Source: Oscillospiraceae bacterium
GTDB lineage: Bacteria > Bacillota > Clostridia > Oscillospirales > Ruminococcaceae
Length of the DNA stretch: 64,000 nt
Assembly: GCA_017415165.1 (NCBI GenBank)
Contig: JAFQIY010000033.1
Coordinates: 25,658-89,657 of the forward strand
Reading direction: 5' to 3'
Shown here: positions 5,488 to 24,921 of the stretch, in pieces
Position numbering within the stretch: the stretch's first letter is position 1
Layout: every line of letters starts with the position of its first letter
Notes under the pieces: generated by a model
The model's input: only the letters and a program-made list of their open reading frames with translations
Databases searched by the model: none
Told to the model about the DNA's origin: nothing
Position numbers and translations under genes: made by a program

Positions 5488-8400
5488 TTAAGAAGCATAA
5501 GTGAGTTCAATTGTGAATGTACACTCTGAATCAGGATTTGCCTGCTCCACATAAATAAGAAGATTACCTGGAGAAACTCCCTCAGGTGTTTCCAATACGA
5601 AAGAGCCAGCGTATGTGTCTGTTTCTGTATTCGGCTCATAGGTAGAAGTCGTAATCCACGTAAAATCAGGATTAATACATAGTCCTGCATAACCAGAAAC
5701 CCAAGCATCTGGGTTTGCTGTATTATTTACAGAGTAATTAAGTGTAATTGATCTGATATCATTAATTGTCTTACCTTCTTCAAGAAGTGCAGAAATGTCT
5801 ATCGAACATTGTTCAAACATATCATTTGCAAAGTCATACTCTGTATCATTTTCACCTGTTTTTGAGCCATACACAGACTTGTATGTGCAAGTGTTGCCAT
5901 TTACAGTCCAGAATGAAACTTCTTCTTCCCCTGTATCTTCTACGACAACCAGCTTACCCTTAACGAGTTTAAGAGCAAAACCTTCGTGTTTTTCATCGAG
6001 AACGATGCTGCCTGCATGATATGTGCCCTTGACTGTAGCTACAACGTAACCTTTCTTGAGTGCAGCAACGTTGCCATTCTTGTCAAGAATTGTTACTGTA
6101 ATCTTGCTGTTGTCTCCCAAAATTCTACTGATATAACCTGTGGCAGTAATCTTGCTGCCCTGATTCATAACGAGGTTAGTGTCAGCGTAAATTGCTACAT
6201 TCTTAGCTGTAATGCCTCCGGAAGCTTTTACATCACCTTCAAGGAAAAGGGTTCCAGTTGCCTTTATTTTATCAGCGGTTATAGCATTTTCATTACCACG
6301 GAGATCAATATCCTTTCCTGCAATAGATGTAAGTAAGCCTGTGTTGCAATTTTCAATAAACACATAGTTCTTGCCAGCGTTGATTGTGTACTTAGCAGGA
6401 GCACCATTCTTCACTGCACCCATATTTACCATTCTAAATACTGTTTCAACTGTAAGTGTAAGGTTGCCTGTAAAGTTGAAGTTCACTTCATCAGCACAAG
6501 TAATGATAATAGTCCTGCAAGTACCAGCCTTAGGGAACTTGATTGCAGCGTTAGCGTTGTAGTCATCGCGAAGTGTGATTTTGTAAATAGCTTCGGAATT
6601 GTTTTCTGCTTCGATAACCTCAACTACTTCGCCCCAAGTAGCATATGCATCAAGTTCAGTTGGTTCTTCTTCGCCAATTGCTATTTCTACATAGAGCACC
6701 TTGCCCATATAGCAGATATCCTTGCCCATCTGTGTGAAGCCGTATTCAACATCTTCATTTGCAGGAGCAATATCGTTTGTAAGCTTATCAACGCTTACAG
6801 TCTTTGTTGTAAGAACAGCCTGACCGTTTGCAACTTCACCTGTGATTTTGAGTGTACCTGTGAAATCAGTGTCCTTACCTGTGAATGTGAGAGCCTTAGC
6901 GCCTTCTTCGTATCTGATAGCACTGTTGCTGGAAAGTGCTTCAAGAGCCTTGATTGAGGACTTTGTTGTTGCCGCAGAAATCAAAAGTGTACCTGGGGCA
7001 CTTTCAGCTTTACCAAGAACAAGCTTAGTAACGTTGAATACCTTGCCTGTTGTAAGGTTGTTATCTACCTTAACTTCGCCGAAGCCTGTGATATCAGCCT
7101 TAGCTGTATCTGCAGACTCGCCCCTCCAGTTGAGAACAGACTTAGCGCCGCCCTTGATAGCTGTTACGTTGCCGTAGAGATCGTCAACTGTAAGGTTCTT
7201 CTTAGCAGTAATTGTAAGGGACTTGCCTGTTGTTACAAATGCAATATTTTGGATTGAAAGGTCTGTATTTGCTGTGATAGCTGTTGCCTTGCCTATGTCG
7301 ATTGTGCGGGGGGCACCATCAACTGTAAGCTTAACGGATTTCGCATACTTAGGAAGTGTAAACTTAGCAGGAGCAATGTCCTTCTTGATTGTGATAACAT
7401 ACTCTGCATTGTTATCCTTAGCCGCGTCAATCTCTGCAACTGCCAATTCATAGTTTGAATAATCCTTGTCATCTTCTTCACTGTCAGGGTCTGTGGAAAC
7501 TATTACTGCACCAGGATATTCAGCCTTGATTGTCTTGCCGTAGCAGTAAGCCTTCATTTCGCCGTCATTGTTTGTGATGCTAATCTTGTCAGCAAAGTTT
7601 TCTTTCTTTGTGTAAAGAATTGCTGTGCCGCTTTCGAGGTTACTGTATACGCCATTATCCATAATGAGAACATTAATTGTTGTGTCGTTTCCAATTGCCT
7701 CGCCGATGCCTTCAAGTGTTACCTTAGGAAGAACGCCGTTTTCCTTGTTAAGCTCAATAGTAGAATTTACTGTAGCAGTCTTGATAGCAGCTGATGCCTT
7801 AGCACCGCTGAGTTCAAGGTAGCCGTCAAGTACATTAACGCCCGTTGCCTTGCCGCCCTTAACCCATACGGCGCCGCTGACCTTGTCAAATGTAGCGAGG
7901 TTCTGAACTATAAAATCGCCATCTATGTTGGATGTCTTTGTACCTGAAAGCTTGCCGATGCATTCGATATCGCCCTTAGCTGTAAGTGTAGCGTCCTTAC
8001 CAACAGCGATATCAATTGTACCCTTCTTGTTGGATACATCGATTGTGATGAATCTGTCGAATGTTACATCGTAAGGTATTGTAAGCTTTGTGCCTGTGAA
8101 TGTGAGTGTAGCATTACCTGTAAAAGTAATGCTCTTAGCATTCTTAGGAAGTGCAAACTTTGCATCGAGTGTAAGGTCTGTGTTTACTTCAATGATGTAG
8201 TCAGCTTCAGGGTCAGTGATGTCTGCAAAGAGAAGCTCAAAGTTAGGATAGTTGCCTACCTTGGTTTCTTCAGAAATTTCTTCACCCTTGTAAAGGTCAA
8301 GCGCTGTGCCTACCTCTGCCTTGATAGACTTTGTCTTTGCATAGTAGTATGCTGTGAGTTCTTCGCCGTCTTCGAGTGCTGTTTTGTTCTTAACAACGAT

Positions 8401-11208
8401 TGCGTCCTCACCTGTTGGGATAGGATTCTTAGTGTAGAGAATTGTTGTGCCGCTTGGAAGAGCAATCCTATGTTCGTCTTCATCATATACCCCTACCCAA
8501 ACAGCCTTACCGAACTTGTCGATAGTAACCTTAGGAATTACTGTGCCGTTGATTACAAGTATAATTTCTGCGTCGTCAGCAACTTCTGTGATAGCAGCTG
8601 TTGCCTTGTCGCCTATGATAACAAATATACCGCCGAGTTTAACAATACCTGTTGCCTTGCCGCCGTTTACTTTAAGGTAACCTTCCTCAACGTTAACTTC
8701 ACCGAATGTTGCGATGTTGTTTACAATTGCAAAACCGCTGAACTTGGATGTCTTTGTACCTGTAAGCTTGTTGATGAACTGAACCGGTTCATCTGTTTCC
8801 TCATCAAGTATGTAAGCATTCTCTGTGATGAAAAGTTCAACATCCTTAGCAACTGTGATGTCGATAAGGTTTGTCTTGTTCTTTGCAGCAAGCTTGACAT
8901 CAAACATTGTGTCTACAGGAACAGCAAGCTTTGTGCCTGTGAATGTGATTGAGCCTTCACCTGTGAAAGTGATTGAATCAACATTCTTAGGAATTGCCAA
9001 TGCAGCGACTTCCAAATCGTGGTTAACGATAACTTCGATATCGCCTGTTGCTGTCTTGAGTTCAGCCATAGCTTCTTCAAGTGTTTTGAAGCCTGTTTTT
9101 CCATCTGCTGTTGTTACAAATACAGGTGCATCAGGAACAACTTTTTCAATTTCTTCTGTAAAATCGCCGTCATAGGAAGTAAGAATTACTGCTTCTGTTA
9201 CTGCAAATCCCGGAGCAAATTCATCGCCGATTATTGCGGAGCCTGGAGCAACAGGACCTACATAAATGTTGTGGAAAACCTTATCCTGTAATTCGGAAAG
9301 GTCAATTACAATTGAGCCGCTTTCTTCCATTGCATAGAATTTTTCCATCCAGCCTGTGCTGTTGTCTTCCCAGCCGTGAAGAACTACAAGCACACCGTAA
9401 CAAGCCTCAGGGGACTCAGCTGTATAGTCAATCTTGATTGCTTCATAGCCTTCAAAAGGTACGGCATTATTATTTTCATAAATTGCAAATGTAGGTGTTA
9501 TATTTGGAATACCTGTTGGAATAGTGCTTGAATTGGTTTCAGGGTCCCAATCCATAGCCTCTTCGATAGTGCCGCTTTCGTAGCTGCCTGTGTCGAGAAT
9601 CATGTCAGGCTTTGAAGCGAGCATTTCATACTCTACTGTTGTGAGACTGTCTGTTGAAATCGCATACTTTTCGCCCTCTGAAAGTTCACCGACAGTATTG
9701 ATGATGTCGTTCATAGAGAACATACATTCAACATACTCTGAACCGTGACCGCCTGATGATACAGCATTGGCAGAGTAACAGTCGTAACAAGCTTCACTCC
9801 AGTTATCCTCTGCGTCAACCTTATATACACCAATGTATGGCCACGGGCAGTATGTCAGACCAGTGCCGTGATCAATACCGTCATCACCAATGTGACTATC
9901 GTGATTACATTCTTCAATTGAAATTACGTCACCTGTTATTCTGATATATTTCATATCCTGTACTTCTTCGTAGGAAACAAATGCTTCAACAGGAGGTTCT
10001 TCAATTGTATACTCGACATTAAGAGTAATCTCTGTTACGCTTACAGTAAGCTCATCATTTGGGTTGTCTGTCCACATACCGCCATTGATATCCATACAGT
10101 GAATATCTTCAACAGTTATACCTGTATCAGTGAACAAAGTGCTTGCTTTAAAAGAGTCACTGCCTGTTTTGGTTGTGATTGTTTTATAGTTTTGTTCGTT
10201 TACAGCCCAATAATCAGCCTCTACCCAGGTTTCTGTACCTGCAGGAGTATTACCCATAACAACAGGGTTAAGGTTAAATTCAAAGTTTTCCTTGTCAGTT
10301 GTAAGCTCCCAGCTGTAGTTTACAGTCATATCTGTAACCTTTACAGCCCACTGCTGAGTTTCATCACCGTTTAATGCCTTGATAGCGGCAACAATGTCAG
10401 CTGAACGGTCTCCGTCGTCCTCATTCGGAGAATGAGCCGCAAAATGCCACTGACCCGATTGTGTGTCATCGTCATAAAAACCCTTGTAGCCGCCGCTTTC
10501 GCCGTCAAGGTAAGTAACATTAAGTTCAACGCTTGTTACATTAAACTCAAATGTATCAGTTGCATTCTTACTGAAAGCTCCTGCGTTAATCCACATATGT
10601 CTCGGATTAACGATATCGCCCTTATCTGCCAGCTCGCTGAAAGCAATTGTTCCGTTGCCTACATTGCTATCAAAAGTATACGTATTGTTTTTGCCGCCAA
10701 TATATTCACCTGAAGCGTTATCACCGCTTGGAATTACAGTGATTTCACCATTAGTGACTGTTTCACCGTCAGCAGGAGTAAATTTCCAGCTGTAGCTTAC
10801 AGCAATATCATTAATGTATATTGTCGGATATTCAGGCAGATCCACATCGGCAGCATCTTCAATAGCAGCAATAATTTCTGCTGTCGGAGTTGAAGTATCA
10901 TCCCACGACTGGAATTCATAAGCTTCTGATATATTTCTGGATTCGCCGTTTTCTGTGTCAACACCTGTGAAGTCAATGCTTTTGCTCCAATCCTGAGCAA
11001 GTGTTACTGTTGTCTGTTTTTCCTCAGCTTGTGGAATATCCGAAAAGCTGAGTGTTTTGCTGTAATTATCTGTAAGCGTGATTGTAGCTGTTTTCGGTTC
11101 ATTATCCTCAGCAAAAACATTTACTGCGGGGAACACAGCTACATTGCTCATAAATACAGCAGCTGTCGTAACCAAAGCACAAAGCTTTGACTTATTAAAT
11201 TGTTTCAT
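5488..11208 (-). CDS. Giant secreted modular protein 1 (1906 aa)
   Basis: A 1906-residue exported protein with a signal peptide (about 1-34, ending VNVFAED). Residues about 35-700 form several beta-rich segments, including a Cys/His-containing part (CNHDSHIGDD, CYDCYSA). Then come four copies of a solenoid-like module. Each copy opens with a Y-x-N/T-x-E helix (for example YPNFELLFADITD), followed by a D-Y-x-I-x-x-N strand, the signature PK-x-A-K-S-I-T-F-x-G, and short beta repeats ending in GTxILYTK. The C-terminal 150 residues hold one WTVNGNTCTYKSVYG module of the type repeated in protein 2. There is no LPXTG, SLH or dockerin, so the anchoring mode is unclear. A beta-helix surface or sheath protein is inferred; no enzymatic site is visible. 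Confidence 0.82.
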   Translation of the reverse strand: MKQFNKSKLCALVTTAAVFMSNVAVFPAVNVFAEDNEPKTATITLTDNYSKTLSFSDIPQAEEKQTTVTLAQDWSKSIDFTGVDTENGESRNISEAYEFQSWDDTSTPTAEIIAAIEDAADVDLPEYPTIYINDIAVSYSWKFTPADGETVTNGEITVIPSGDNASGEYIGGKNNTYTFDSNVGNGTIAFSELADKGDIVNPRHMWINAGAFSKNATDTFEFNVTSVELNVTYLDGESGGYKGFYDDDTQSGQWHFAAHSPNEDDGDRSADIVAAIKALNGDETQQWAVKVTDMTVNYSWELTTDKENFEFNLNPVVMGNTPAGTETWVEADYWAVNEQNYKTITTKTGSDSFKASTLFTDTGITVEDIHCMDINGGMWTDNPNDELTVSVTEITLNVEYTIEEPPVEAFVSYEEVQDMKYIRITGDVISIEECNHDSHIGDDGIDHGTGLTYCPWPYIGVYKVDAEDNWSEACYDCYSANAVSSGGHGSEYVECMFSMNDIINTVGELSEGEKYAISTDSLTTVEYEMLASKPDMILDTGSYESGTIEEAMDWDPETNSSTIPTGIPNITPTFAIYENNNAVPFEGYEAIKIDYTAESPEACYGVLVVLHGWEDNSTGWMEKFYAMEESGSIVIDLSELQDKVFHNIYVGPVAPGSAIIGDEFAPGFAVTEAVILTSYDGDFTEEIEKVVPDAPVFVTTADGKTGFKTLEEAMAELKTATGDIEVIVNHDLEVAALAIPKNVDSITFTGEGSITFTGTKLAVPVDTMFDVKLAAKNKTNLIDITVAKDVELFITENAYILDEETDEPVQFINKLTGTKTSKFSGFAIVNNIATFGEVNVEEGYLKVNGGKATGIVKLGGIFVIIGDKATAAITEVADDAEIILVINGTVIPKVTIDKFGKAVWVGVYDEDEHRIALPSGTTILYTKNPIPTGEDAIVVKNKTALEDGEELTAYYYAKTKSIKAEVGTALDLYKGEEISEETKVGNYPNFELLFADITDPEADYIIEVNTDLTLDAKFALPKNAKSITFTGNATLTFTGTKLTIPYDVTFDRFITIDVSNKKGTIDIAVGKDATLTAKGDIECIGKLSGTKTSNIDGDFIVQNLATFDKVSGAVWVKGGKATGVNVLDGYLELSGAKASAAIKTATVNSTIELNKENGVLPKVTLEGIGEAIGNDTTINVLIMDNGVYSNLESGTAILYTKKENFADKISITNNDGEMKAYCYGKTIKAEYPGAVIVSTDPDSEEDDKDYSNYELAVAEIDAAKDNNAEYVITIKKDIAPAKFTLPKYAKSVKLTVDGAPRTIDIGKATAITANTDLSIQNIAFVTTGKSLTITAKKNLTVDDLYGNVTAIKGGAKSVLNWRGESADTAKADITGFGEVKVDNNLTTGKVFNVTKLVLGKAESAPGTLLISAATTKSSIKALEALSSNSAIRYEEGAKALTFTGKDTDFTGTLKITGEVANGQAVLTTKTVSVDKLTNDIAPANEDVEYGFTQMGKDICYMGKVLYVEIAIGEEEPTELDAYATWGEVVEVIEAENNSEAIYKITLRDDYNANAAIKFPKAGTCRTIIITCADEVNFNFTGNLTLTVETVFRMVNMGAVKNGAPAKYTINAGKNYVFIENCNTGLLTSIAGKDIDLRGNENAITADKIKATGTLFLEGDVKASGGITAKNVAIYADTNLVMNQGSKITATGYISRILGDNSKITVTILDKNGNVAALKKGYVVATVKGTYHAGSIVLDEKHEGFALKLVKGKLVVVEDTGEEEVSFWTVNGNTCTYKSVYGSKTGENDTEYDFANDMFEQCSIDISALLEEGKTINDIRSITLNYSVNNTANPDAWVSGYAGLCINPDFTWITTSTYEPNTETDTYAGSFVLETPEGVSPGNLLIYVEQANPDSECTFTIELTYAS

Positions 11209-11227
11209 AGCTTTTCCTCCTCATTAA

Positions 11228-11256: not shown

Positions 11257-11370
11257 AATAATTTTACCATAAATTGCGTAATAAAACGTGAATATATTGT
11301 TACATTTATATGTATTTAATATTAATAACGGTGGCTATAAATACATATTATGTTAATGCCTATACAAAAT

Positions 11371-11469: not shown

Positions 11470-14400
11470 TTATACATTTGCGTCATCCTTAACCACAACC
11501 AGCTTGCCCTTGACATTTTCAATCTTCAAACCTGCATAAGCGTCCTGATTGAGAACGATATTTTCAGCGCCTGTGCCCTTGATTGTACCGATTACGTCAC
11601 CTGCTTTAAGCTGCTGAGTTATGCCTGTTGTCTTGTTGAAGATTACCACAGTAATCTTGCAGTCGGCATTAGGTGTTACATTGCCTGTGATAGCAAGCTT
11701 GCTGCCTTTGCTCATAAAGAGGTCAGTGTTCTCAGTAATTATTACATTCTTAGCTGTAATACCACCGATAGCCTCGATTTGTCCGCCAATATAAAGGTCG
11801 CCTGCCTTAATCTTCTCGGCATTTGCATAAAATAGCCCAACAAAGCCTGTGCCGTTGATGGATGTAAGCATACCTGTATCTGAACAAAGGATGTTAATAG
11901 CATTCTTGCCTGCATTAATAGTATACTTAGCCGGTTTGCCGTTTTTAACCGCACCGATATTTACGCCACTGAACGTTGTAGAAGCTGTAAGTACAAGGTT
12001 ACCTGTGAAATTGAAATTCAAAGGAATTATTACATTTTCTTCATTCGGTACGGATGTAATTGTAATAGACTTGTATGTACCAGCCTTAGGGAACTTGATT
12101 GCACCGTTAGCATTATAGTTGTCGAGGAGAGTAATCATATAACCTGCTTCGGAATTCTTTGCTTTTTCAATATATGCAACTACTTCACCCCAAGTAGCAT
12201 ATGCTACAGGTTCTTCTTCATCAAATGATACTTCAAGCACCTTGCCTATATAGCAGATATCCTTGCCTATCTGTTTGAAGATGTATTCAACATCAGGGTT
12301 TGCAGGCTCAATACCGTTTGCAAGCTTTTCAGTGTCTACGCCCTTTGCTGTAAGAACAGCCTGACCGTTTGCAACTGTGCCTGTGATTGTGAGTGTGCCT
12401 GTGAAAGCAGTGTCCTTGCCTGTGAATGCAAGAGCAGTCTTAGCACCCTCAGCGTACTCGATAATACCGACGCTTACTGCGTCGATAGCCTTTACGGATG
12501 CCTTTGCTGTTGCGTCAGAAATAACAAGTGTTGCTGTTTCTGCCTTAAACACAAGCTTAGTAACATTGAATACCTTGCCTGTTGTGAGTGTGTCAGCTAC
12601 ATTGACAGTACCGAAGCCTGTGATATCAGCCTTAACTGTGTTTTCGTCCTCACCGTTCCAGTTGAGAGCAAACTTAGCAGCACCCTTGACAGCTGTTACG
12701 TTGCCGTAAAGCTTATCAACTGTAAGATTCTTCTTAGCATTGATTGTAAGTGACTTGCCTGTTGTTACAAATGCAATGTTTTCAATCGTAAGGTCTGTAT
12801 TTGCCGCAATAGAAGTTGCCTTGCCTACGTTGATTGTGCTTCCGTTTTCGCTTCTGAAAGTTATTGAAGCGGCTGTCTTAGGCAGTGTGAACTTTTCAGC
12901 AGTTACGTCTGCATTGAGTGTAATCACATAATCCGCAGTGTTATCCTTTGCCTCGTTTATAGCTTCAAATGCCTTTTCAAGGTTAGGATAATTGCCGCCG
13001 TTCATACTTACAGCACCTGCATACTCTGCCCTGATTTCCTTCTTGTAAAGGAACGCGTTAAGCTCCTGACCTTCATCGGTTTTGTTTGTGATTGTAATTT
13101 TGTCGGTGTACTTTTCCTTTACTGCGTAAAGTATCGGTGTACCGCTTGCAATTGTACCTGTTTCGTTTTCAACGGTAACAGTAAGTGCCTCATTTACGTT
13201 TGCAACTGTTGCCTTCGGAAGCTTGCCTTCTGTTTCGGCAAGTATAATTTTTGCAGTACCGATATTTGTAATTGCCGCTGTTGTCTTTGCTCCTGTCAGC
13301 TTAATGATACCATCAAGAGTTGTGATACCCTTTGCTGAGCCTGTAACTGTCAGTGTGTATTCACCTGTGCTTACGCTGTCAAACTTTGAAAGTGTCTTTA
13401 CCGTTACGTCAGCACTGTTGATTACAAGACTTGTTCCTGCAGCACCTGAAAGTGCGTTTATGTCAAGGTCTGCACCGATAGTAAGTGTGATGCCCTTTGC
13501 TGCTGAAATGTCAAGTGTGCCCTTCTTGTTGTCTGCAATGATATTGCTGTTGAGGGTTGTATTTGTGCTGAGTGCAAGCTTTGTGTTGCCAATTGTAAGG
13601 TCAGCACCATCAATTGTTACGCTTGCAGCCTTCTTAGGCATAACAAGATTTTTAACAGAAGCCGCCTCGTTGAGAGTGATTGCATAGTCCACAGCAGGGT
13701 CTGTAACATCCTCAAGTGCCTTTTCAAGGTTAGGGTAATTTTTACCGTTTACGCTTACTGCTCCCGCATATTCCGCACGGATTTCAGTTTTGTAGAGAAA
13801 TGCATCAAGCTCCTGTTCCGCGTCAGTTTTGTTTGTAATTGTAATTTTGTCTGTGTACTTTTCCTTTACAGTGTAAAGAATTGCCGTGCCGCTTGCAAGC
13901 TTGCCTGTTTCATTTTCTACAGTAACAGCAAGTGCTTCATTTACGTTTGTAACGGTTGTCTTAGGAAGCTTGCCTTCTGTCTCCACGAGAATAATTTCAG
14001 CTGTGCCGATATTTGTGATTGCAGCAGTTGTACCTGCATTTGTAAGCTTGATTGTACCGTTGAGCAAGCCTACTCCCTTTACTGCACCTGATACTGTAAG
14101 AATTTCGCCGTCTGCAACCGTAACCTCACCAAATGTTGCGAGACCGCCCAATGCTGTGTCTGTATTAACAACAAGCTTTGAAGTTGCTGTGCCGCTTACT
14201 GCACCGAAATTCTCTGTTTTTCCGTTCAGTGTCAGGGTTTTGCCGCCTGCAACCTTTACTGTCATCGGCTTTGTGCCGTTGGATACGATTGTGTTTTCAA
14301 TTACCGTGTCGCAAGGAATTGTCAGCGATGCACCGCTGATTGTGAGCTTGCCCTCACCCTTGATGGTTACGCTCTTTGCCTTTGTCGGGAGAGTCAATGT

Positions 14401-17400
14401 CTTGATTTCTGCGTCCTCGTTGAGAGTGATTGTTACATCGCCTGTTGCTGTCTTGATTGCAGCAAGAGCATCATCAAGTGTTTCGTAGCCTGTTGTGTCG
14501 TCTCCGATGCTTACTGTTACAGCGTATGTTTTGTTGTCATCGCTATCACCATTACGGATAATAATTGTAAAGCCAAGCTCGTCTGTTGCAGTAAGAACAT
14601 CATCCGCATTGAAAACGCAAACGGAAATGCCTGTGATTTCTTCAGGGGAAATGTCTCCTGTGGAAATAATCTGCTCCAATGTTTTAGAAAGTTCAAGAAC
14701 ACCTGCTGCAGACGGAGAAAGTCTTATGTGACTTCCCTGTGCAGTTGAAAGCGAAATGCCAATCTGTACCTTAGAACCGTCAATTTCTTCGGGAAGCGTT
14801 ACACTTGCCTCGATAATATCCGTATTGCTGAGCTGGAATTCAGGAGATAAAGTATAAAGCTCCATATCAAGCGAGCCGTCGGAATTTGTACCGAGAGTAG
14901 TTTCGTTATAATCTCTGTACTTGTATTTAAGACCCGTATCCTCTGTGCTTGCGGTCACATTACTGATTGTAAGAGTTGTGTTTTCATTTACCCACCACAA
15001 TGAAATCTCAATATCTCCGCCATAGAGAACACCGAAAGGTGTTTCGAGAGTAATTGTCGCTTTTTCTCCTGCATTAAGCTTAAACTCACTGTGCTGCCAG
15101 CAGCTGTTACCATCGTTTACGCCGAAAGAGCCATTAGCAAAGCCATCAGCTTCAATATCAAATGTAATGCGTCTTACGTCTTTATCTTTGCCGTCATAAT
15201 AATCAGAAAGAATAAATCTGTAGTCCTTACCTGATCTTGACGTTTCATTTTGCTTATATGTGTAATTACCATTACCGTTGTTTGTCCATACACCGGGAAT
15301 ATCAAAAACAGGGGTAAAGTTACAGAAAGTAATAGTAGAACCCTCTACTGTGCTCCAGTCAATGTGAATAACACCTGTGCCGTTACCTGTGAATTTATTG
15401 GCAAATTCCCAGGAAACCTCAGTAGGACCGTATATACTCTGAGTCCTGTATTCAGTACCATCCCAGGAGCCAATCCACGCAACTATATTATCTTCATTTA
15501 CAACATCGAATGTCAGCGACACCATATCTTCAAGGTCGCCGTCAATAACATCGTTTAAATCTATCGGACAAGCAATACCTGCGTTTTCAGCACCGTTATG
15601 AGTGTAAATATATTTGCCGTCCTCAAAGGTCCACGTACCGATAGTATCAATATCAGTGCTGTCGTAAAATCTTGCTTCACCCAAATCAATTGTAAATGAA
15701 GCGCCTGAAGGAATTGTCTCATCGCCTTTATCAGGACGGAATGTAATACCGTTTGCCGCCGTTCCCTCGTTGGTCAAATCAATATAAACAGCATCATTTG
15801 CATAAGTAAGCGTATAGCCGTTGTTTGTTATCATATACATCTCTGACTCATTATCAACTATAGGCAGAGCGATAAATTTAATGTCAGCTGCATCGCCGTC
15901 ATAATAATCAGAGAAATCAACAGTAAGTGTCTTTTCCTCATCGGTAAATGATGGGGAATGCTTATATGTGTAAGTGCCGTCGCTGTTGTCAATCCAGCCG
16001 TATGTAATCTCATCGGTGCTGACTTTAATATTGCTGATTTCAACGGATGAAGCTTCCGCAGCCCTATAAATAAACACCTCTATATTACCGTTAGCACAGA
16101 AGCCGTCAGGGAATTCCCAAGTAACGCTGTGTGTGCTGTCTATCCATTCATAAGCATAGGAGCTGCCGTCCCATATACCTATACCTGCCTTGATATCACC
16201 TTCAACAGTAATATCAAAGCTTACTGCTGTAATATCCGTCAATTCTCCGTCGTAGTAATCGGTAAGCATAATAAGATGCTTGAGTCCATAATCCTCAGCG
16301 CCGTTGTGAGTGTACTTGACAGAAGCATCGTCATCTGTCCACGTTCCGACTGTATCAATAGTTTCTGATGTGTAGATTGTCATTTTGCTCAGGTCAAATG
16401 TGTAAACATCACCGTCAGCAAGCTTAGAAAAATCGTCATTGAACGGATACAGCGCAATTGTTGTGCCCGACATACCCTGCTCAAAAGTAATATAGCTCTT
16501 TGAAGTACCGGACTCCTGATTTGTAGCCTCGTCAGAAGTGAAAGAAATTCTGGTTCCTGAGCTTTCGGACGGAATAGCAATATATCTTATATCCGAAGCA
16601 TTTCCACCGTAATACTTTGACAAGTCAACAGTAATTTTTCTCTGCGACTCGGAAAGGTTTGCAGAGTGTATGTATGTTAAAGTATCATTGCCGTTGTCAG
16701 TCCAGCCGAAGTCAGCGGTTAAAGGATATATCTTAAGGTTGCTGATTTCAATTGAAGCACCTTCCTCAGCCCCATAAACAGACAAATCGACATTGCCGTT
16801 TCCGTTGAAGCCGTTTTCAAAGGTCCATTCAACGCTGCCGCTTTCTTCAATCCAGGAATAAGGATAGCTTGTGCCGTCCCATATTCCTGCACCGCCTTCA
16901 ATAGTACCGTTAACCGTTACATCAAAGCTTACAGCTGTAATATCCGTTAACGCTCCTTCGTAATAATCATTAAGATTGAACGAGGTTTTTAATCCGAAAT
17001 TCTCCGCACCATTGTGTGTGTATTTGAACTTTCCGTTGTCTGATACCCATTCGCCCACTGTGCCGACAGTGCTTGATGTGTAAATATTCATATTGCTGAA
17101 ATCAAATGTAAACGTTGTTCCGTCAGCAAGCTTGGAAAGGTCATCCGCCAACGGATAAAGAACCAGCACTTCGTTTGACATACCATAATCAAAACCAATG
17201 TAATTCTTATCCGTGCCTGCTTCATAATTTGATGCATTGTCTGCTGTAAATTTGAACATATCGCCTGTACTTTCGCACGGAATGGAAATAAATCTTATAT
17301 CCGAAGGATTTCCGTTGTAACCGTAATCTGGCAGATAAAGAGTAATGTATCTTTCAGATTCATTAAGCTCGGACGAATGCTTGTAGGTAGCAGTATCATC

Positions 17401-18837
17401 GCCGTTATCAAACCAGCCGTAACAGCTTGCTTCGTCCCTGACAATAATATTGTTAAGGTCAATGGTAAGCGTAGTGCCATCGGGAATTACACTTCCGTTG
17501 TTGTAGTATTCAGAAATAGATATATCAAATGTCGCAGATGTAAGACCGTTGGCAAATTCAGCTGTAGAAGATGTTTCGTTCCACAAACTTCTTGTAGGAG
17601 CCTCCCAAGACAATGTTATTGTTTCCGCTGCCGAAGCTGTATACGGAACAACAATTCTTCTTATATCCGCAATATCTCCGCTGTAATATTTGGTAATATC
17701 AAGCGAAAGACGTTTTATAGGTTTGCTGGAAGAATATGTATAAGTAAATGTGCCATCGCCATTATCAACCCAACCACAAACGGTAGATTTTATATTACTA
17801 ATGGTAATGGTAGAACCCTTTGTTATAGATTGAGGACGAATTCTAATGTTTGAATAGTCGTGTACAGCATTATCCGATACTAAATTCCAATATACAGTCT
17901 GGGTTTTGAGTGCTGTTTTTGTGTTAATATTAGATGAATAAGCATCTGGTAGATCAATATAACCGCTGACGTCACCACTCACTGTCAAATCAAAAGAAAT
18001 TGATCCTACTATACTACAGTCATCAATACCTGTCAAGAAGTCACTTAAATAGATATCATAAATAATACCGTTGGGTTCATCATTGTTATGCGTGTATGTA
18101 TATGTATTATTTGTATTAGTCCATTCACCTATATTGCTTACAGTATCTTTGTCATAAACAACCATACTGTTTAAATCTATAGACACAGTTTCACCATCAG
18201 GAACGGATAAATCTTCTGATATATCGTCTACGCCAAGTATTAATGATGTATCAGAAAAACCATTTTTATATTCAATGGCAACTCTCGGATTATCCATACA
18301 TCCAATGGTGCATCCACCACCCCATTCGTATAATTCCAAAAGCTCCGTTGACCTTTCAAAATCAAATGTAATACATCTTATATCAGAGAGATTGCCACTG
18401 TAATATTGGGCAATGTCAACTGAAAAACGTTTCCGGCTATCTGTGCTTGAAAAATTAGAAGAATGTGTGTAAGTAATAGTTCCGTCACCATTATCAACCC
18501 AACCGTAAGTAACCTCAGAATTAAGCGCCGGGACGCTTTCTTCTGCTGTTTTTTCAGCTTCCTCTGTTGTTTCTGCAGGTAATGCTGTCGTTTCCTCAGA
18601 GGTTTCTGTCATTTCCTCAGAGGTTTCTGTCATTTCTCCCGAGTCTGTTGATGTTTCTTCGGGTTCTTCTGCCGCTTCTCCTGATTCGCTGATGTTTTCA
18701 AGCGTTTCAGAAATACTGCTGTCTACAGTATCCTCCGCAAATGCAGGTACAGCAGTAAGTCCCGCACCCGTCGGCGACAAAATCATTCCGAGAGTAAGCA
18801 GACCCGAAATGATGCGTTTGCCTAGTTGTTTTTTCAC
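11470..18837 (-). CDS. Giant secreted modular protein 2 (2455 aa)
   Basis: I chose the GTG start at 18837: GGGAGG lies just before it, and the upstream ATG at 18876 falls at the predicted transcription start. The leader KKQLGKRIISGLL ends at about residue 36 (PAFAED), followed by an acidic Glu/Thr linker. Next come ten tandem modules of about 100-130 residues of two alternating kinds: GWVDNGDGTxTYxH with YYSGxxxDIRxI, and VGxWTxDxGxxxYTHNGAE with DITAVSFDVT. The C-terminal half has four solenoid-like modules (NYPNLEKAF, LPKxAxSxT). The repeats resemble carbohydrate-binding beta-sandwiches followed by a beta-helix stalk, which is inference. No wall-anchor motif is seen; the protein ends VVVKDDANV. 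Confidence 0.85.
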   Translation of the reverse strand: MKKQLGKRIISGLLTLGMILSPTGAGLTAVPAFAEDTVDSSISETLENISESGEAAEEPEETSTDSGEMTETSEEMTETSEETTALPAETTEEAEKTAEESVPALNSEVTYGWVDNGDGTITYTHSSNFSSTDSRKRFSVDIAQYYSGNLSDIRCITFDFERSTELLELYEWGGGCTIGCMDNPRVAIEYKNGFSDTSLILGVDDISEDLSVPDGETVSIDLNSMVVYDKDTVSNIGEWTNTNNTYTYTHNNDEPNGIIYDIYLSDFLTGIDDCSIVGSISFDLTVSGDVSGYIDLPDAYSSNINTKTALKTQTVYWNLVSDNAVHDYSNIRIRPQSITKGSTITISNIKSTVCGWVDNGDGTFTYTYSSSKPIKRLSLDITKYYSGDIADIRRIVVPYTASAAETITLSWEAPTRSLWNETSSTAEFANGLTSATFDISISEYYNNGSVIPDGTTLTIDLNNIIVRDEASCYGWFDNGDDTATYKHSSELNESERYITLYLPDYGYNGNPSDIRFISIPCESTGDMFKFTADNASNYEAGTDKNYIGFDYGMSNEVLVLYPLADDLSKLADGTTFTFDFSNMNIYTSSTVGTVGEWVSDNGKFKYTHNGAENFGLKTSFNLNDYYEGALTDITAVSFDVTVNGTIEGGAGIWDGTSYPYSWIEESGSVEWTFENGFNGNGNVDLSVYGAEEGASIEISNLKIYPLTADFGWTDNGNDTLTYIHSANLSESQRKITVDLSKYYGGNASDIRYIAIPSESSGTRISFTSDEATNQESGTSKSYITFEQGMSGTTIALYPFNDDFSKLADGDVYTFDLSKMTIYTSETIDTVGTWTDDDASVKYTHNGAEDYGLKHLIMLTDYYDGELTDITAVSFDITVEGDIKAGIGIWDGSSYAYEWIDSTHSVTWEFPDGFCANGNIEVFIYRAAEASSVEISNIKVSTDEITYGWIDNSDGTYTYKHSPSFTDEEKTLTVDFSDYYDGDAADIKFIALPIVDNESEMYMITNNGYTLTYANDAVYIDLTNEGTAANGITFRPDKGDETIPSGASFTIDLGEARFYDSTDIDTIGTWTFEDGKYIYTHNGAENAGIACPIDLNDVIDGDLEDMVSLTFDVVNEDNIVAWIGSWDGTEYRTQSIYGPTEVSWEFANKFTGNGTGVIHIDWSTVEGSTITFCNFTPVFDIPGVWTNNGNGNYTYKQNETSRSGKDYRFILSDYYDGKDKDVRRITFDIEADGFANGSFGVNDGNSCWQHSEFKLNAGEKATITLETPFGVLYGGDIEISLWWVNENTTLTISNVTASTEDTGLKYKYRDYNETTLGTNSDGSLDMELYTLSPEFQLSNTDIIEASVTLPEEIDGSKVQIGISLSTAQGSHIRLSPSAAGVLELSKTLEQIISTGDISPEEITGISVCVFNADDVLTATDELGFTIIIRNGDSDDNKTYAVTVSIGDDTTGYETLDDALAAIKTATGDVTITLNEDAEIKTLTLPTKAKSVTIKGEGKLTISGASLTIPCDTVIENTIVSNGTKPMTVKVAGGKTLTLNGKTENFGAVSGTATSKLVVNTDTALGGLATFGEVTVADGEILTVSGAVKGVGLLNGTIKLTNAGTTAAITNIGTAEIILVETEGKLPKTTVTNVNEALAVTVENETGKLASGTAILYTVKEKYTDKITITNKTDAEQELDAFLYKTEIRAEYAGAVSVNGKNYPNLEKALEDVTDPAVDYAITLNEAASVKNLVMPKKAASVTIDGADLTIGNTKLALSTNTTLNSNIIADNKKGTLDISAAKGITLTIGADLDINALSGAAGTSLVINSADVTVKTLSKFDSVSTGEYTLTVTGSAKGITTLDGIIKLTGAKTTAAITNIGTAKIILAETEGKLPKATVANVNEALTVTVENETGTIASGTPILYAVKEKYTDKITITNKTDEGQELNAFLYKKEIRAEYAGAVSMNGGNYPNLEKAFEAINEAKDNTADYVITLNADVTAEKFTLPKTAASITFRSENGSTINVGKATSIAANTDLTIENIAFVTTGKSLTINAKKNLTVDKLYGNVTAVKGAAKFALNWNGEDENTVKADITGFGTVNVADTLTTGKVFNVTKLVFKAETATLVISDATAKASVKAIDAVSVGIIEYAEGAKTALAFTGKDTAFTGTLTITGTVANGQAVLTAKGVDTEKLANGIEPANPDVEYIFKQIGKDICYIGKVLEVSFDEEEPVAYATWGEVVAYIEKAKNSEAGYMITLLDNYNANGAIKFPKAGTYKSITITSVPNEENVIIPLNFNFTGNLVLTASTTFSGVNIGAVKNGKPAKYTINAGKNAINILCSDTGMLTSINGTGFVGLFYANAEKIKAGDLYIGGQIEAIGGITAKNVIITENTDLFMSKGSKLAITGNVTPNADCKITVVIFNKTTGITQQLKAGDVIGTIKGTGAENIVLNQDAYAGLKIENVKGKLVVVKDDANV

Positions 18838-19094: not shown

Positions 19095-19137
19095 TATTGT
19101 ATGCTGTTTAACATTAATTTTATTGGGAGGTAATCAA

Positions 19138-22100
19138 GTGAAAAAACAATTGGGCAATCGTATCATTTCGTGGCTGCTTGCGCTTGGAATGATTATGTCG
19201 CCGACAGGTGCAGGACTTACTGCTGTCCCTGTTTTTGCAGAGGAAAGCGGTATCGTCGAACCTGTGGAGGAAGATAACATTACCACAGATGAAAATGTCT
19301 CCGATGAGGAAGAAACTCCTTCATCTGAGGGCAATGACATCGTTGCAGACGAAAACAATCCTACTGAAGATGTACTTCCTTCAGAAGGTGATAACATTGC
19401 GGAAGAAACTCAAAGCCTTGATGCAGATGGAGAGGCTGTAATCGGTGAAGGTACCTGGACTGAAAATAACGGTACATATACATTCACATCACAGTACGGC
19501 AGCAATACATCAGATGAGGAAGAAGGTACTGTAGATACCGAATACGATGCTGAGTATGATGCTATGACAATCAACCTTTTAGACCTGATGGAAGAAGGCA
19601 GGTCAGCTGCTGATATTGCATTTGTTTCTGTAGACATTAAAACTTTAAAAGGTTATGTAAGCGGTGCAATAGGCGGAACTGATGCAGACAGCACTCTCGG
19701 TAAGGGCGGTTGGATTACCGAAAGTTACCCTGTATTGGAGGATAAAATTCTTCTTAAATTCAGTGATGAAGGTGCGGCAAGCACAAGCATACAGCTTCAG
19801 GTATGGTATGCAGATGCTGATTCATCAATAGAATTCAGCAATGTAACAATTGCCTATAAGGATTCAGACGATTCCTTATACAAGTGGACAGAGAGCAATG
19901 ACGGTTCTTTGACACTTGAAATTTTCAGAAGTCCTGAAAGCGGTGAGAAAATTTCCAATTACGCTGTTGACCTTGTGGCACTGCTGGAAGGAACAGAATT
20001 TGAAGATGTTAAGTCAATCGGATTTGAAATTACCGAATTCTATGGTAATATGAACGGCGGTTTAGGTATTGAAGCCCCTGGTTTTACTGATAACTGGGCT
20101 TCTGTATCCTGGTCAGGAACAGGCAAATACCGCCTTGTAACACCTAATGGTATAACAGCTTCAACTATCAATATCCAGCATTGGTGGTCAGAGGGCGAGG
20201 CTAAGGTGACATTTGATAACTTTGTTATTAACCCTCCTCAGCCTTTCAATGTAATAATTGAAAGTGAATACAAAACAATACCCGCCGCAAGCTGGGAAGA
20301 AGCCGCAGAATATATCACAGACCCATCTGTTGATTATATTGTAGAAATTACAACTATATCTGAAATTGAAAATTTTGTTATTCCAAAGACAGCTGCATCT
20401 ATTACATTTGTAGGTGAAGCTATTACAATCGGCAACAAAACCCTTGCAATTCCTGTTGACACAACATTCAGCAATGAGGGACTCAAATCAGAGAATTTGT
20501 CTGTAACTGTAGCGGCAGGAAAGACACTTACAGTATCAAGCATATGGACTGAATGGGATAAACCTATAGCAAATATCACAGGTACAGCAACTTCAAAATT
20601 CATCACAAATGCTTCATTTGACGTAGTAAACATAAAGAATTTTGAAACTGTAGATTCAGGTGACCTGAGAGTATCAGGCACAATGAGCGGCATAAAGAAT
20701 TTTACGGGTTGCCTCCATGCAAGAGAAAATTCAAAGATAACTATAGACAATATCATCAACAGTTTATCCAGTGAAACTTACTTGACTTATTCACCGCACG
20801 AAACAATTCCTACAGTAAACAACATTTCTGAGGGTGCAAAGCTTGTTCTTAATTGCGCAGGCGGAGTGTCTATACAGACAGGCACAACCGTGCTTTACAG
20901 CCCTAAGGATATAAGCTCGGCTATAGAAATCGGCTCTTACAACCACACAGAAGCTTTCTACTATCCTAAGACAAAGGAAATCAAGGCTGAAAACCCTGAT
21001 GCGGTATCACTAAGCAAAAACGGTGACCTTGCAGAAAGCTTCCAGAATCTCGACGCTGCTTTTGCGGCTGTAACAGACAAAACAGCTGATTACACAATCG
21101 AGATTAACGACGATATTGAAATCGAAAATTTAGTAATTCCAAAGACAGCAAACAGCATTACATTTACAGGCGACGGCAGAATAACAATGGCAAATAAAAA
21201 GCTTGTAATTCCTGTAAACACCACATTTGATGTATTTCTGGCAATAGACAGATACATTTTGGGAGAAGAAATTCACAAGATTATGCCTGAAACAACTATA
21301 ACGGTTGCAGCAGGCAAAAAGCTTACCGTAAACAAGGAATGGCTGTACCATATTGACACAATAACAGGTACAAAGACATCTGAGCTTGTACTTAACGCCG
21401 GGGCAAGTTTTGATGATGTTAAAAATTTCGGAACAGTAACAGCTGTTGACCTTTCTTTATGGAACAATATGTCGGGAATAGGCAATTTCAGCGGTAACCT
21501 GACATCAAACCGTGCAACAGTAACAATTGATAACATTTCTGCAAACTCTGACATTCACATCTGGAATTCAAATACAAAGCTGACCGTTAATTCAATTGCA
21601 GAAAATGCTGTTCTTACACTGACTGTTGATGAAGATGCGGCACTTGCAAGCGGCACGACGGTTCTTTACTCCAAGAACAACATTTCACCAAATGTTAAAA
21701 TTGCAAACAAGACAGCAGACGGCGATGAGCTTTCGGCTTACTACTACACAAAGACAAAGTCTATCAAGGCAGAGGTCGGCACGGCTCTTACGCTTTCATA
21801 CGGCAATTTTGAAAAGTCCTACCCTAACTTTGAGCTTCTCTTTGCTGACATCACTGACAAGAATGTTGACTATACGATTACACTCAACACTGATATGTTT
21901 GTTGAGAAGCTTACTTTCCCAAAGACAGCAAAGAGTATCACAATCAACGGTGCTCAACTCGGCTTCGATAACAAGACTGTTGCAATTCCTGTTGATATGA
22001 CAATCGCAACAGAAAGATTTGCGTGGTCGATAGGCGAGATAACCGAAGAATTGCCTGCAGGTCAGGGCTATACATTGACTGTTGCGGCAGGCAAAACACT

Positions 22101-24921
22101 TACCATTAATTCAAATGTATGCGATGTAAAGGCTATTACAGGTACTAAAACATCAAAACTCAACATTATCGGTGATGGTACTGTATCTGTTTATGATTTA
22201 AAAACATTTGAAAATGTTACAACAGCACCTTCTGCGTGGCTTTGTGTACGCGGCTCAATGTCAGCTGTCAGCAATTTCAGCGGCAGACTTATTTTCAGTC
22301 CTACTATCAAATCAAAGGACGTTGCAATCAGCAATATTGCGGCGGATTCCCTTATTCAGGCGTGGATTTACGACAATCAAAAGCATAAGATAACTGTCAA
22401 TGCAATTGCCGAAAATGCAACTCTCACATACCGTGCCTGGGTAAATGATTCAACAGGCGACCTTGCAAACGGCACAACAATTCTTTACGCACCTAAGGAC
22501 ATTACCGAGCAGATTGTTATTGAAAACAAGACAGAATCAGGTAAGTCACTCAAGCCTTTCTATTACAAAAAGACAAAGGAAATCAAGGCAGAGGTAGCTG
22601 AGGCAATTACTCTTTCTGACGGAACAACAGAAAATAATTATCCGAACCTTGAAAAAGCCTTTGAAAACATTACAGACAGCACAAAGAATTACACAATTAC
22701 ACTTTATGAAGATGTAAAATCAGAAAAGCTTACACTTCCGAAAACAGCCGCTTCAATAACCATCAGAAGCGACAACCTTAGCACAATCAACGTGGGCAAG
22801 CTTACTTCGATTACAGCAAATACAGACCTTACAATCGAAAATATTGCATTTGAAACATCGGGCAAGACTCTCACAATCAACGCTAAGAAAAATCTTACGG
22901 TTGACGGACTTTACGGCAACGTAACAGCACTCAAGGGCGGCGCTAAGTTTGCTCTTAACTGGCTCGGCGAGGATGAGGGACTGTTTGCAGATATCACAGG
23001 CTTTGGTACTGTTAACATAGCTGAACAGCTTACAACAGGCAAGGTATTCAATGCAACTAATCTCGTGTTCAAATCAGCAACAGCAACGCTTGTTATTTCC
23101 GATGCAGCAGCAAAGGTATCCGTAAAGGCTATCAATGCAGCAAGCGGCGGTATTATCAAGTATGCTGAGGGTGCTAAGACTGCTCTTGCTTTCACTGGCA
23201 AGGACGCAGCTTTCACAGGTACACTCACAATCACAGGTGCAGTTGCAAACGGTCAGGCAGTCCTCACAGCAAAGGACATAAGCCTTGACAAGCTTACAAA
23301 CGGTATTGCTCCTGCAAATGTAAACGTTGAATACGGCTTTACACAGGTTGGCAATAACATCTGCTATATGGGCAAGGTGATTGCTCTCAATTCAGATAAC
23401 AGCACTGAAAAATATGCACTCTGGAGTGAAGTGGTTGCAGTTATCGAAAAAGCAAAGAATGCAAAGGCTGACTACGAAATCACACTCCTCGACAACTACA
23501 ACTTTAACGGTGCAATCAAGCTCCCTAAGGCAGGCACTTACAAATCAATCACAATTGACGGTGCCGACCTCTATGAGCTTACATTCACAGGCAATATCGC
23601 TCTCACAGGTAATCTTAACATTGAAAACACTACTACTGTATGCACCACAAAAACAGGTGCAGAAAGCCCATTCAAGATTAACGCAGGCAAGTACAGCCTT
23701 ACACTGACAGAGGTAATCACAGGCGCATGCACAATCAGCGGCAGCACAGGCTCTGTAATTACCCTTAATGATGTAAAAATCAACGGCAGCGTTTCGGGCG
23801 ACACTGTTATCTGTAACGGTACTGATATGGTTTATATCGCAGGCAACCTTGCTGCAAAGAAGTCACTTGTTGCAAACGACAGTATCTTTATCCGCGGAAA
23901 TATCAATGCATATGCACTTTCTTCCACATCCGCAAACGGTGCGGACTTCGAATTCTCCCACGGCAAAAAGATTACAATCGGCAAGGGCGGCATCACAGCA
24001 GGCGAGCTTTCATTCAGAGTTGTAGACAGCGATTTCCACTTAGATGCTATTGAAGACGGCGAGGTAATCGGTACAATTGCAGGTGCTATCAGCAGCAATG
24101 CAAGCGTTGAGGTTTACGGTGCAGACGACTTTGAAGGCACACTTAAAGCTGTTAAGGGCAAGCTTATTATCAGCAGCGAAGCTGCTGAGGAGGTTGTAGA
24201 AACAGGAAAGTGGATTGAAAACAACGGTACATATACCTATGTCCACGGCGATACAGCAGGTGCAGGTGAAACTCTTGTTATTCCATTCAGCAAGTTCTGC
24301 AGCGATGGTTCTTCTTCTGTAATGAGAATTAAGTTCGATGTAACAAGAACTGCAACGGCAGATGTATCTTGCCAATATGGTGAGTTGCCTTCCTCCCCAA
24401 TTTTTTATGATGACATAACGAAAGAAAGCTCAAATGTCATTAATACTGAAAATGTAGGAATATTAGTTGATTCATCTCTGAGTTTTTTTATAGAGAATAT
24501 TTCAACTGGCGAAAAAATTGTTATCAGTAATTTGGTTGTTTATGATGATATATCATACGCTAAGTTAGGAAATTGGACTTATAACGAGGAAGAAGGTTCA
24601 TATACCTATACACATCTTTCTGCTGATGATTCCAGAGGTGTTGATTATCGTCTCCCAATAAGTGAAATTTACGACGGATATGCATATGACATAAGCAGTA
24701 TATCTTTCAGTGTTACAGCAAATGGAAATGCACAGATTGATATTTGGTGGGGTGGAGAAGTATGTGAATTTGATTTCAATAATGAAAATGGAGCAACTCA
24801 AACTCAAACAATTGAATCATCAAGTGAGTATTCTGCTGCTAATGATATATCTTTTTTTATGTCAGAGATTGATAGCAACACAACAGTTACAATCAGCAAC
24901 ATTCAGGTTACTACAAAATAA
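19138..24921 (+). CDS. Giant secreted modular protein 3 (1927 aa)
   Basis: The start is the GTG at 19138 behind TTGGGAGGTAATCAA. The leader KKQLGNRIISWLL is almost identical to that of protein 2. An acidic Glu/Asp-rich linker follows, then two WTENNGTYTFTSQYG-type modules. Five solenoid-like modules come next (signature PKTAxSITFxG, ending SGTTVLYS or NGTTILYA). A glycine- and serine-rich region and two more C-terminal modules (WIENNGTYTYVHG; WTYNEEEGSYTYTH with TVTISNIQV at the end) complete it. Proteins 1-3 therefore share module types in different order and number. No anchor motif, dockerin or catalytic signature is visible. Role: probably a surface or matrix protein, possibly binding glycans. 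Confidence 0.85.
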   Translation: MKKQLGNRIISWLLALGMIMSPTGAGLTAVPVFAEESGIVEPVEEDNITTDENVSDEEETPSSEGNDIVADENNPTEDVLPSEGDNIAEETQSLDADGEAVIGEGTWTENNGTYTFTSQYGSNTSDEEEGTVDTEYDAEYDAMTINLLDLMEEGRSAADIAFVSVDIKTLKGYVSGAIGGTDADSTLGKGGWITESYPVLEDKILLKFSDEGAASTSIQLQVWYADADSSIEFSNVTIAYKDSDDSLYKWTESNDGSLTLEIFRSPESGEKISNYAVDLVALLEGTEFEDVKSIGFEITEFYGNMNGGLGIEAPGFTDNWASVSWSGTGKYRLVTPNGITASTINIQHWWSEGEAKVTFDNFVINPPQPFNVIIESEYKTIPAASWEEAAEYITDPSVDYIVEITTISEIENFVIPKTAASITFVGEAITIGNKTLAIPVDTTFSNEGLKSENLSVTVAAGKTLTVSSIWTEWDKPIANITGTATSKFITNASFDVVNIKNFETVDSGDLRVSGTMSGIKNFTGCLHARENSKITIDNIINSLSSETYLTYSPHETIPTVNNISEGAKLVLNCAGGVSIQTGTTVLYSPKDISSAIEIGSYNHTEAFYYPKTKEIKAENPDAVSLSKNGDLAESFQNLDAAFAAVTDKTADYTIEINDDIEIENLVIPKTANSITFTGDGRITMANKKLVIPVNTTFDVFLAIDRYILGEEIHKIMPETTITVAAGKKLTVNKEWLYHIDTITGTKTSELVLNAGASFDDVKNFGTVTAVDLSLWNNMSGIGNFSGNLTSNRATVTIDNISANSDIHIWNSNTKLTVNSIAENAVLTLTVDEDAALASGTTVLYSKNNISPNVKIANKTADGDELSAYYYTKTKSIKAEVGTALTLSYGNFEKSYPNFELLFADITDKNVDYTITLNTDMFVEKLTFPKTAKSITINGAQLGFDNKTVAIPVDMTIATERFAWSIGEITEELPAGQGYTLTVAAGKTLTINSNVCDVKAITGTKTSKLNIIGDGTVSVYDLKTFENVTTAPSAWLCVRGSMSAVSNFSGRLIFSPTIKSKDVAISNIAADSLIQAWIYDNQKHKITVNAIAENATLTYRAWVNDSTGDLANGTTILYAPKDITEQIVIENKTESGKSLKPFYYKKTKEIKAEVAEAITLSDGTTENNYPNLEKAFENITDSTKNYTITLYEDVKSEKLTLPKTAASITIRSDNLSTINVGKLTSITANTDLTIENIAFETSGKTLTINAKKNLTVDGLYGNVTALKGGAKFALNWLGEDEGLFADITGFGTVNIAEQLTTGKVFNATNLVFKSATATLVISDAAAKVSVKAINAASGGIIKYAEGAKTALAFTGKDAAFTGTLTITGAVANGQAVLTAKDISLDKLTNGIAPANVNVEYGFTQVGNNICYMGKVIALNSDNSTEKYALWSEVVAVIEKAKNAKADYEITLLDNYNFNGAIKLPKAGTYKSITIDGADLYELTFTGNIALTGNLNIENTTTVCTTKTGAESPFKINAGKYSLTLTEVITGACTISGSTGSVITLNDVKINGSVSGDTVICNGTDMVYIAGNLAAKKSLVANDSIFIRGNINAYALSSTSANGADFEFSHGKKITIGKGGITAGELSFRVVDSDFHLDAIEDGEVIGTIAGAISSNASVEVYGADDFEGTLKAVKGKLIISSEAAEEVVETGKWIENNGTYTYVHGDTAGAGETLVIPFSKFCSDGSSSVMRIKFDVTRTATADVSCQYGELPSSPIFYDDITKESSNVINTENVGILVDSSLSFFIENISTGEKIVISNLVVYDDISYAKLGNWTYNEEEGSYTYTHLSADDSRGVDYRLPISEIYDGYAYDISSISFSVTANGNAQIDIWWGGEVCEFDFNNENGATQTQTIESSSEYSAANDISFFMSEIDSNTTVTISNIQVTTK

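Follow-up and report, generated by a model that had tools for sequence, protein, structure and literature searches.

Three giant genes, designated P1, P2 and P3 in this study, are encoded at positions 5488-24921 of the window, by which we mean the whole stretch of 64,000 bases analysed here. The window belongs to an assembly of 2.62 Mb in 75 contigs, estimated to be 93% complete. The open reading frames and their starts agree with the lengths that a preliminary description of the sequence had given for the three proteins (Table 1). P1 starts at an ATG preceded by the Shine-Dalgarno sequence GAGGAGG. The list of open reading frames starts P2 and P3 at TTG codons upstream of the GTG codons chosen here, which are preceded by GGGAGG and yield the lengths in Table 1 (both Shine-Dalgarno sequences were recognised by eye). 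P2 and P3 are divergently oriented. The coding length of the three genes amounts to 18,873 of 64,000 bases, or 29.5%, close to the earlier estimate of about 30%. Judged by eye, all three proteins begin with a signal-peptide-like start, as had been supposed, and P2, P3 and L047, a giant encoded elsewhere in the same genome, have this start in common.

Table 1. Genes and modules of the three giant proteins (R, Q, T, solenoid modules by position; W, W modules)
Feature	Position	Strand	Remarks
P1	5488..11208	-	1906 aa; unnamed N-terminal region behind a signal-peptide-like start, then solenoid R-R-Q-T and one W
P1 N-terminal region, aa 40-690	9139..11091	-	no family match
P1 solenoid array, 4 modules R-R-Q-T	5899..9123	-	
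P1 Q-T unit	5899..7506	-	60% identity to P2 Q-T
P1 C-terminal W module	5491..5862	-	
P2	11470..18837	-	2455 aa from GTG; acidic linker after a signal-peptide-like start, then 10 W, linker region, R-R-Q-T
P2 tandem W modules, n=10	14941..18507	-	
P2 stretch of ~140 aa separating W10 from solenoid	14521..14940	-	no family match
P2 solenoid array, 4 modules R-R-Q-T	11473..14520	-	reaches C-terminus
P2 Q-T unit	11473..13014	-	
P3	19138..24921	+	1927 aa from GTG; R-R-R-Q-T flanked by 2 W on each side, after a signal-peptide-like start
P3 N-terminal W modules 1-2	19450..20247	+	
P3 solenoid array, 5 modules R-R-R-Q-T	20251..24189	+	
P3 Q-T unit	22606..24189	+	57% identity to P2 Q-T
P3 C-terminal W modules 3-4	24205..24918	+	

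Modules of the giants and their order

The three proteins are composed largely of two kinds of module, a solenoid module of ~250 aa and a W module of ~115 aa, the first Trp of which is near-invariant. Hidden Markov models found four, four and five solenoid modules and one, ten and four W modules in P1, P2 and P3, respectively, the same numbers as in the preliminary description. The E-values of these counts are partly circular, as the models were built from the same modules. BLAST among the three proteins, which needs no module model and is an independent check, concurs with the counts: similarity of 40-47% extends over ~1000 aa in the solenoid regions, with E-values of 1e-169 to 0, and the W stretches match one another with E 2e-4 to 1e-9. 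The three proteins are explained by no Pfam or NCBIfam family and, as had been noted, no anchor, dockerin or catalytic family matches P1-P3 above its cut-off. A Pfam scan also found no adhesive domain of known type in P1-P3, and the W modules could not be assigned to a family above cut-off. Two families, DUF1391 (E 6.6e-9) and DUF7045 (E 2.7e-6), did exceed the Pfam cut-offs in P2; each match is confined to ~30 residues around the point where a W module begins, and we dropped both identities as chance resemblance of short motifs. The Rfam scan of the window gave no match.

The giants had been described as built by shuffling two module types, and this holds in part. The number and position of the W modules do differ between P1, P2 and P3, and paralogues exchange modules; the order within the solenoid array, on the other hand, is constant. 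When the last module is labelled T, the penultimate one Q and all others R, every array in the window reads R..R-Q-T. On a tree built with 76 modules of 19 proteins these labels changed 7 times, against a mean of 31.5 for shuffled labels, and none of 200 shuffles was as low; the tree is a quick one, with 22 starred and 21 open among its 73 branches, and near-copies favour clustering of the labels. The 76 modules were taken from 81 stretches; the five excluded were four of L107 and one of L088:15682 (which is the same protein), where the array is cut or divergent, and L091 received new labels since the contig end truncates its T unit. Random shuffling thus does not describe the arrays. Between P1 and L047, identity is 90% for the third modules, 73% for the second and 67% for the fourth, and paralogues accordingly swap modules while the R..R-Q-T order stays. 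In the divergent arrays of L049, L092 and L107, Q- and T-like units are kept and further T-like units are added. The array is not always the extreme C-terminus: W modules follow the T unit in P1, P3 and L046, and an acidic tail follows it in L048, L088 and both L089 proteins.

A protein of a related genome, G317, is 57% identical to P1 over aa 2-702 and 59% over the array. Only the G317 protein carries W modules and InlB repeats between the N-terminal part and the array, and only P1 carries a W module after it. This comparison would fit a history in which W modules come and go and the array persists.

The surroundings of the giants gave several separate observations. A 316-aa ORF that looks lipoprotein-like by eye (4373-5323, +) adjoins P1 and has no Pfam match. 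The CelD_N match of a 528-aa GH9 protein (2212-3798, +) begins at residue 2, and therefore this enzyme probably has no signal peptide. Downstream of P3 lies a 241-aa ORF (25233-25958, +) that matches the N-terminal part of UvrD helicase only, possibly a truncated gene, and a CotH kinase protein (29750-31495, -) adjoins a two-component system a few kb from the giants. An 848-aa protein (32839-35385, +) shows by eye an N-terminal hydrophobic segment, a FecR-like stretch, a Thr-rich linker and InlB-like repeats; it has no Pfam match at E 0.001. In an unusual protein of 840 aa (40411-42933, +), a xylose-isomerase-like TIM barrel (AP_endonuc_2) is joined with an AMP-binding enzyme that includes its C-terminal domain, and the gene for this protein adjoins those for a class II aldolase, an MFS protein, a GH43 and an alpha-galactosidase. 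Two Bmp/PnrA substrate-binding-like proteins adjoin a hybrid histidine kinase that contains an Hpt domain (53209-57914, -), possibly as a sensing system.

Array proteins in the genome and its relatives

Profile searches seeded with the modules, a check proposed in the preliminary description, brought up four more array giants in the genome. The solenoid profile gave 26 matches at E 1e-3 (30 with a wider profile), all in seven proteins on four contigs, namely P1-P3 and four giants (L046-L049) on three other contigs. L046 (contig C49, cut at its 5' end) carries two W modules, InlB repeats, four solenoid modules and two further W modules. L047 (C41) has an unnamed N-terminal part and four solenoid modules, and adjoins a GH31-type and two GH43-type genes. 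Both remaining giants lie on C39: L048 combines a GH5 cellulase and CBM65_1 with four solenoid modules and an acidic tail, and L049 a transglutaminase core (39.8 bits, cut-off 23) with divergent solenoid units. Two of the giants outside the window adjoin GH2-, GH31- and GH43-type genes (these glycoside hydrolase names were assigned by eye). At E 0.001 the W-module profile matched 19 times in the genome, always in array proteins (15 in P1-P3 and four in L046). W modules are missing from L047, L048 and L049, which leaves the array as what all seven proteins share; and as catalytic heads occur in the giants outside the window, the preliminary description had seen the non-catalytic part of the family.

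The distribution of the array is patchy. The solenoid profile (A2) matched one of 21 genomes of the genus, that of the present organism, and six of 396 sampled from the family, again including it; a profile of the Q-T unit (A4) matched two of 394 genomes sampled from the order. A profile from the three Q-T units alone found no loci among genome contigs. A4, from a 12-row alignment, found seven: one in RGIG2166, a goat-colon metagenome-assembled genome (MAG), three in the MAG SUG65, and the remainder in UBA3215, a sheep-rumen Lachnospiraceae MAG and an uncultured Clostridia MAG. A mobile or viral origin of the array was considered and set aside, as 40 pattern matches on viral contigs included no confirmed relative and plasmids gave none. 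Contamination of the assembly is also unlikely, because array genes are spread over four contigs, two of which measure 157 and 290 kb, and arginyl-tRNA synthetase-, D-Ala-D-Ala ligase- and glutamate racemase-like genes (named by eye) adjoin one array gene.

We catalogued 23 array proteins, 16 of which come from seven relatives: seven in the present genome, eight in G217, three in G317, one each in G380 and G143, and L106, L109 (a fragment) and L110. G399 encodes a single distant protein, L093 (4806-9140, +), which was not counted. It combines two solenoid-like units with LRR_5, Pectate_lyase_5 (25.8 bits, cut-off 24.3) and a PQTSD-type sorting tail, and may possibly represent an anchored ancestral type.

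The heads in front of the array are variable. The commonest named head is the transglutaminase core: Transglut_core exceeds its cut-off in six proteins of five genomes (L049, L087, L091, L092 and two in L121), and L089:9252 has it just below (22.2 bits, cut-off 23) together with LRR_5. The pattern Cys...GHAWNQ...Asp-x-Thr-Trp, which we take to be the transglutaminase-type triad, was found intact in five of the six proteins above the cut-off with a regular expression. A head of GH5 plus CBM65_1 occurs in two proteins of two genomes (L048 and L089:465; GH5 E 1.1e-61 and 2.3e-64, respectively). RCC1 and fn3 heads were found in one protein each (L088 and L090), LRR_5 with Big_3 in L106, and InlB repeats in three proteins (L046 and two in L086); the Pfam matches of the heads include Flg_new_2. 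In seven proteins (P1-P3, L047, L110, L122 and L123) no family explains the head, and the fragment L109 includes none.

Fold of the solenoid module and nature of the W module

The profile of 77 solenoid modules had a single match in the PDB, pectin methylesterase 1gq8 (E 3.8e-5), limited to positions 5-82 of 250. With Pfam at E 0.1, the 77 modules matched 52 families, 25 of them listed; the weak matches comprise Bactofilin (6 modules, best E 4.3e-4), Pectate_lyase_5 (PF20585; 3, best E 2.8e-4), Pectinesterase (2) and Beta_helix (1), alongside many single matches that look like chance. The NCBIfam scan of the solenoid modules gave nothing useful. The strongest period in hydrophobicity is near 2.2, as in beta strands; no rung period exceeded the 99% null in R or Q, and in T one lag (26) of the 44 tried did so, which is compatible with chance. 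Taken at the level of sequence, these data suggest that the solenoid is probably a non-catalytic, all-beta, parallel beta-helical rod.

Conservation differs between the positions. At a threshold of 70%, R modules (n=40) have four conserved aromatic or polar columns and T modules (n=18) have 12 (seven aromatic and four Lys), with Tyr25 in 18 of 18, the R set being the larger and more diverse one. Conserved acidic columns are E10 and D31 in Q and D31 in T, whereas no D, E, H or R column reaches 70% in the 40 R modules. Pectate lyases and pectin methylesterases are defined as enzymes by conserved catalytic acid/base residues. It is thus very improbable that the solenoid modules are themselves enzymes related to these families, as the remote match to 1gq8 and the one or two acidic columns of Q and T could be taken to indicate: the match is limited in extent, and we rank this reading last because R modules have no conserved acidic, His or Arg positions. 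In our reading, the array would be not an enzyme but a rod in which R units lead up to a specialised end.

A rod of this kind could nevertheless bind polysaccharides by itself. If the solenoid modules are lectin-like beta-helices that bind cellulose or pectin, in the manner of Cthe_2159 or of the SRRP binding region of L. reuteri, the arrays would hold the proteins on the fibre and not on the cell. The nearest solved sequence being a pectin methylesterase and the weak matches to Pectate_lyase_5, Pectinesterase and Beta_helix point in this direction. So do known systems: PMC6712302 describes Cthe_2159 (PF14262), a beta-helix protein that binds cellulose and pectate (polygalacturonate), is pectate-lyase-like in fold and has rumen clostridial homologues, and beta-solenoid adhesive regions in Firmicutes appear in PMC9210967. 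A further beta-helix adhesin in print is PfbA (PMC3718772). We nevertheless consider this reading doubtful, as (i) the four conserved columns of the R modules form no evident common binding face, and (ii) PF14262 is not among the 25 listed of the 52 matched families. Pectate_lyase_5, by its name in Pfam a family of the same pectate-lyase-like kind, is matched weakly by three of 77 modules.

Bactofilin, the commonest of the weak matches, raises another possibility, namely that the arrays self-assemble like a bactofilin polymer into an S-layer-like or biofilm matrix decorated with heads, which transglutaminase heads may cross-link. Up to eight array proteins per genome and the high frequency of transglutaminase cores among the named heads would suit a matrix. 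However, the Bactofilin (PF04519) match of P3 stays at 15.6 bits against a cut-off of 27.9, and the 13 solenoid copies of the window have diverged (17-53% identity to the first alignment row), unlike a lattice of near-identical units. We regard such a matrix as unlikely, although a major surface or matrix function of the giants in general, as proposed in the preliminary description, is plausible.

The W module is by our by-eye reading a candidate jelly-roll fold. Its best Pfam match is DUF5620 (PF18522), which spans nearly the entire module (positions 5-119 of 120) but appears in two of 32 W modules and stays below the cut-off (E 0.003; 18.4 bits, cut-off 25). A DUF5620 search of the genome gave 14 bits, and at E up to 1 two of 14 control genomes also had matches below the cut-off. 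The W-module profile had no significant match in the PDB (best E 0.033, and 0.15 in another search). W modules occur in 15 of 396 family genomes, the present one included. Outside array proteins they are found, in other genomes, in Big_2 proteins and in L095 (362-4642, +), a protein of another genus with several W modules followed by a C-terminal dockerin; the W modules are therefore also part of a cellulosome-type protein. Four smaller proteins (L096, L097, L094 and L071) have one W module each and signal-peptide-like starts, and two of them also have Big_2. The modules appear CBM-like, and glycan binding would be their likeliest role.

Attachment and function of the array

No dockerin, cohesin or sorting signal was found that could attach the array proteins. 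Dockerins (PF00404) are absent from the present genome (93% complete) and from all six genomes with the module, against 13 of 25 comparison genomes (Fisher P = 0.028), a set chosen by ourselves; without six genomes picked for their W modules the contrast becomes 0 of 6 against 8 of 19 (P = 0.13). Congeners with dockerins hold just 1-3. Cohesins (PF00963) were not found in any of five genomes. A sorting motif was detected in none of 22 intact C-termini of array proteins (18 + 4, L093 not included). Their last 60 residues contain no strongly hydrophobic tail, the highest mean hydropathy over 17 residues being 1.26. Pfam scans of whole P1-P3, the 77 modules and the N-terminal parts revealed no other anchor domain. 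As the sorting motif is absent, retention, if there is any, would have to proceed through the array, the W modules or another signal.

Repeated stalk modules in large proteins, by which fibrillar adhesins are recognised, are found in the array proteins, and these could simply be ordinary fibrillar adhesins with a repeat stalk and adhesive heads, in which the sortase signal was lost or replaced and Q-T is nothing special. The length, the repeats and the variable heads match what PMC9210967 sets out for fibrillar adhesins; with those that have beta-solenoid adhesive regions (SRRP type) the array proteins also have in common that they are giant, repetitive proteins of Firmicutes with a probable beta-solenoid. 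The genome has five sortase matches, and the distant L093 has a sorting tail beside its two solenoid-like units. Nevertheless, neither the sorting motif nor a hydrophobic tail was seen in the 22 C-termini, a GH5 cellulase is among the heads, and different genera conserve the Q-T unit, which would be needless in a mere spacer. In the array proteins, unlike SRRP-type adhesins, the solenoid lies toward the C-terminus, the heads include a hydrolase and transglutaminase cores, and no anchor was found. This explanation is thus rather improbable.

Our preferred explanation, to which we assign a probability of about 0.5 as a whole, is that a probably beta-helical rod displays or retains variable fibre-active heads, as a functional alternative to dockerin or CBM37 tails. 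P1-P3 would be members of a family that is probably secreted and has in common an ordered array of at least three units of ~250 aa at or near the C-terminus. The array would act as a rod presenting interchangeable N-terminal heads (GH5 with CBM65, transglutaminase core, LRR, RCC1, fn3, InlB or W), and its Q-T end would probably hold them on the surface of the cell or of the fibre, independently of sortase and cohesin. Among these proteins P1-P3 would be non-catalytic members, whose W modules probably bind plant polysaccharide, and the ten tandem copies of P2 could provide high-avidity binding, so that a role in fibre attachment suggests itself. A more specific version, which we put forward tentatively, is that Q-T is, in gut clostridia that lack cohesins, a new dockerin-like 'tail plug' that docks cellulases, transglutaminases and glycan-binding arrays to the cell wall or to a common beta-helical fibre, and would do so without sortase, SLH or cohesin. 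If this is the case, members with transglutaminase heads could make the attachment covalent.

Close parallels exist in Ruminococcus. In R. flavefaciens FD-1, PMC2930009 describes dockerins on transglutaminase-like, LRR, GH5 and CBM proteins, and the array resembles them as one non-catalytic C-terminal unit common to proteins of these kinds. A dockerin is, however, one domain of ~60 aa, whereas the array spans several hundred to ~1500 aa, and the cellulosome of FD-1 contrasts with six module genomes without dockerin and five without cohesin. PMC4081043 presents R. albus as a cohesin-poor, dockerin-encoding bacterium in which CBM37 attaches enzymes to the cell wall. CBM37 resembles the array as a non-dockerin module on many unrelated enzymes and non-catalytic proteins in a cohesin-poor bacterium, although the array is far larger and ordered and R. 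albus still has dockerins. CBM37 was not among the matches of the Pfam scans, in which no CBM37 profile was run by name. A literature search with general words only, for modules that are nameless, yielded no description of the array in the titles and abstract openings among the matches listed.

The family thus brings two module families, the R/Q/T units and W, that have no confident Pfam or NCBIfam match in the scans made. Its parts (a rod with heads, CBM-like modules and a transglutaminase core) are of known kinds and not categorically new. The family varies a known principle, by which one tail serves numerous fibre-active proteins, in that neither dockerin, cohesin nor sortase signal was detected. 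To our knowledge, one answer has been described to how cohesin-less gut clostridia hold their fibre proteins together, CBM37 in R. albus. The array, which is combined with a cellulase plus CBM65, with transglutaminase cores and with ten CBM-like modules in tandem, is a second candidate beside it.
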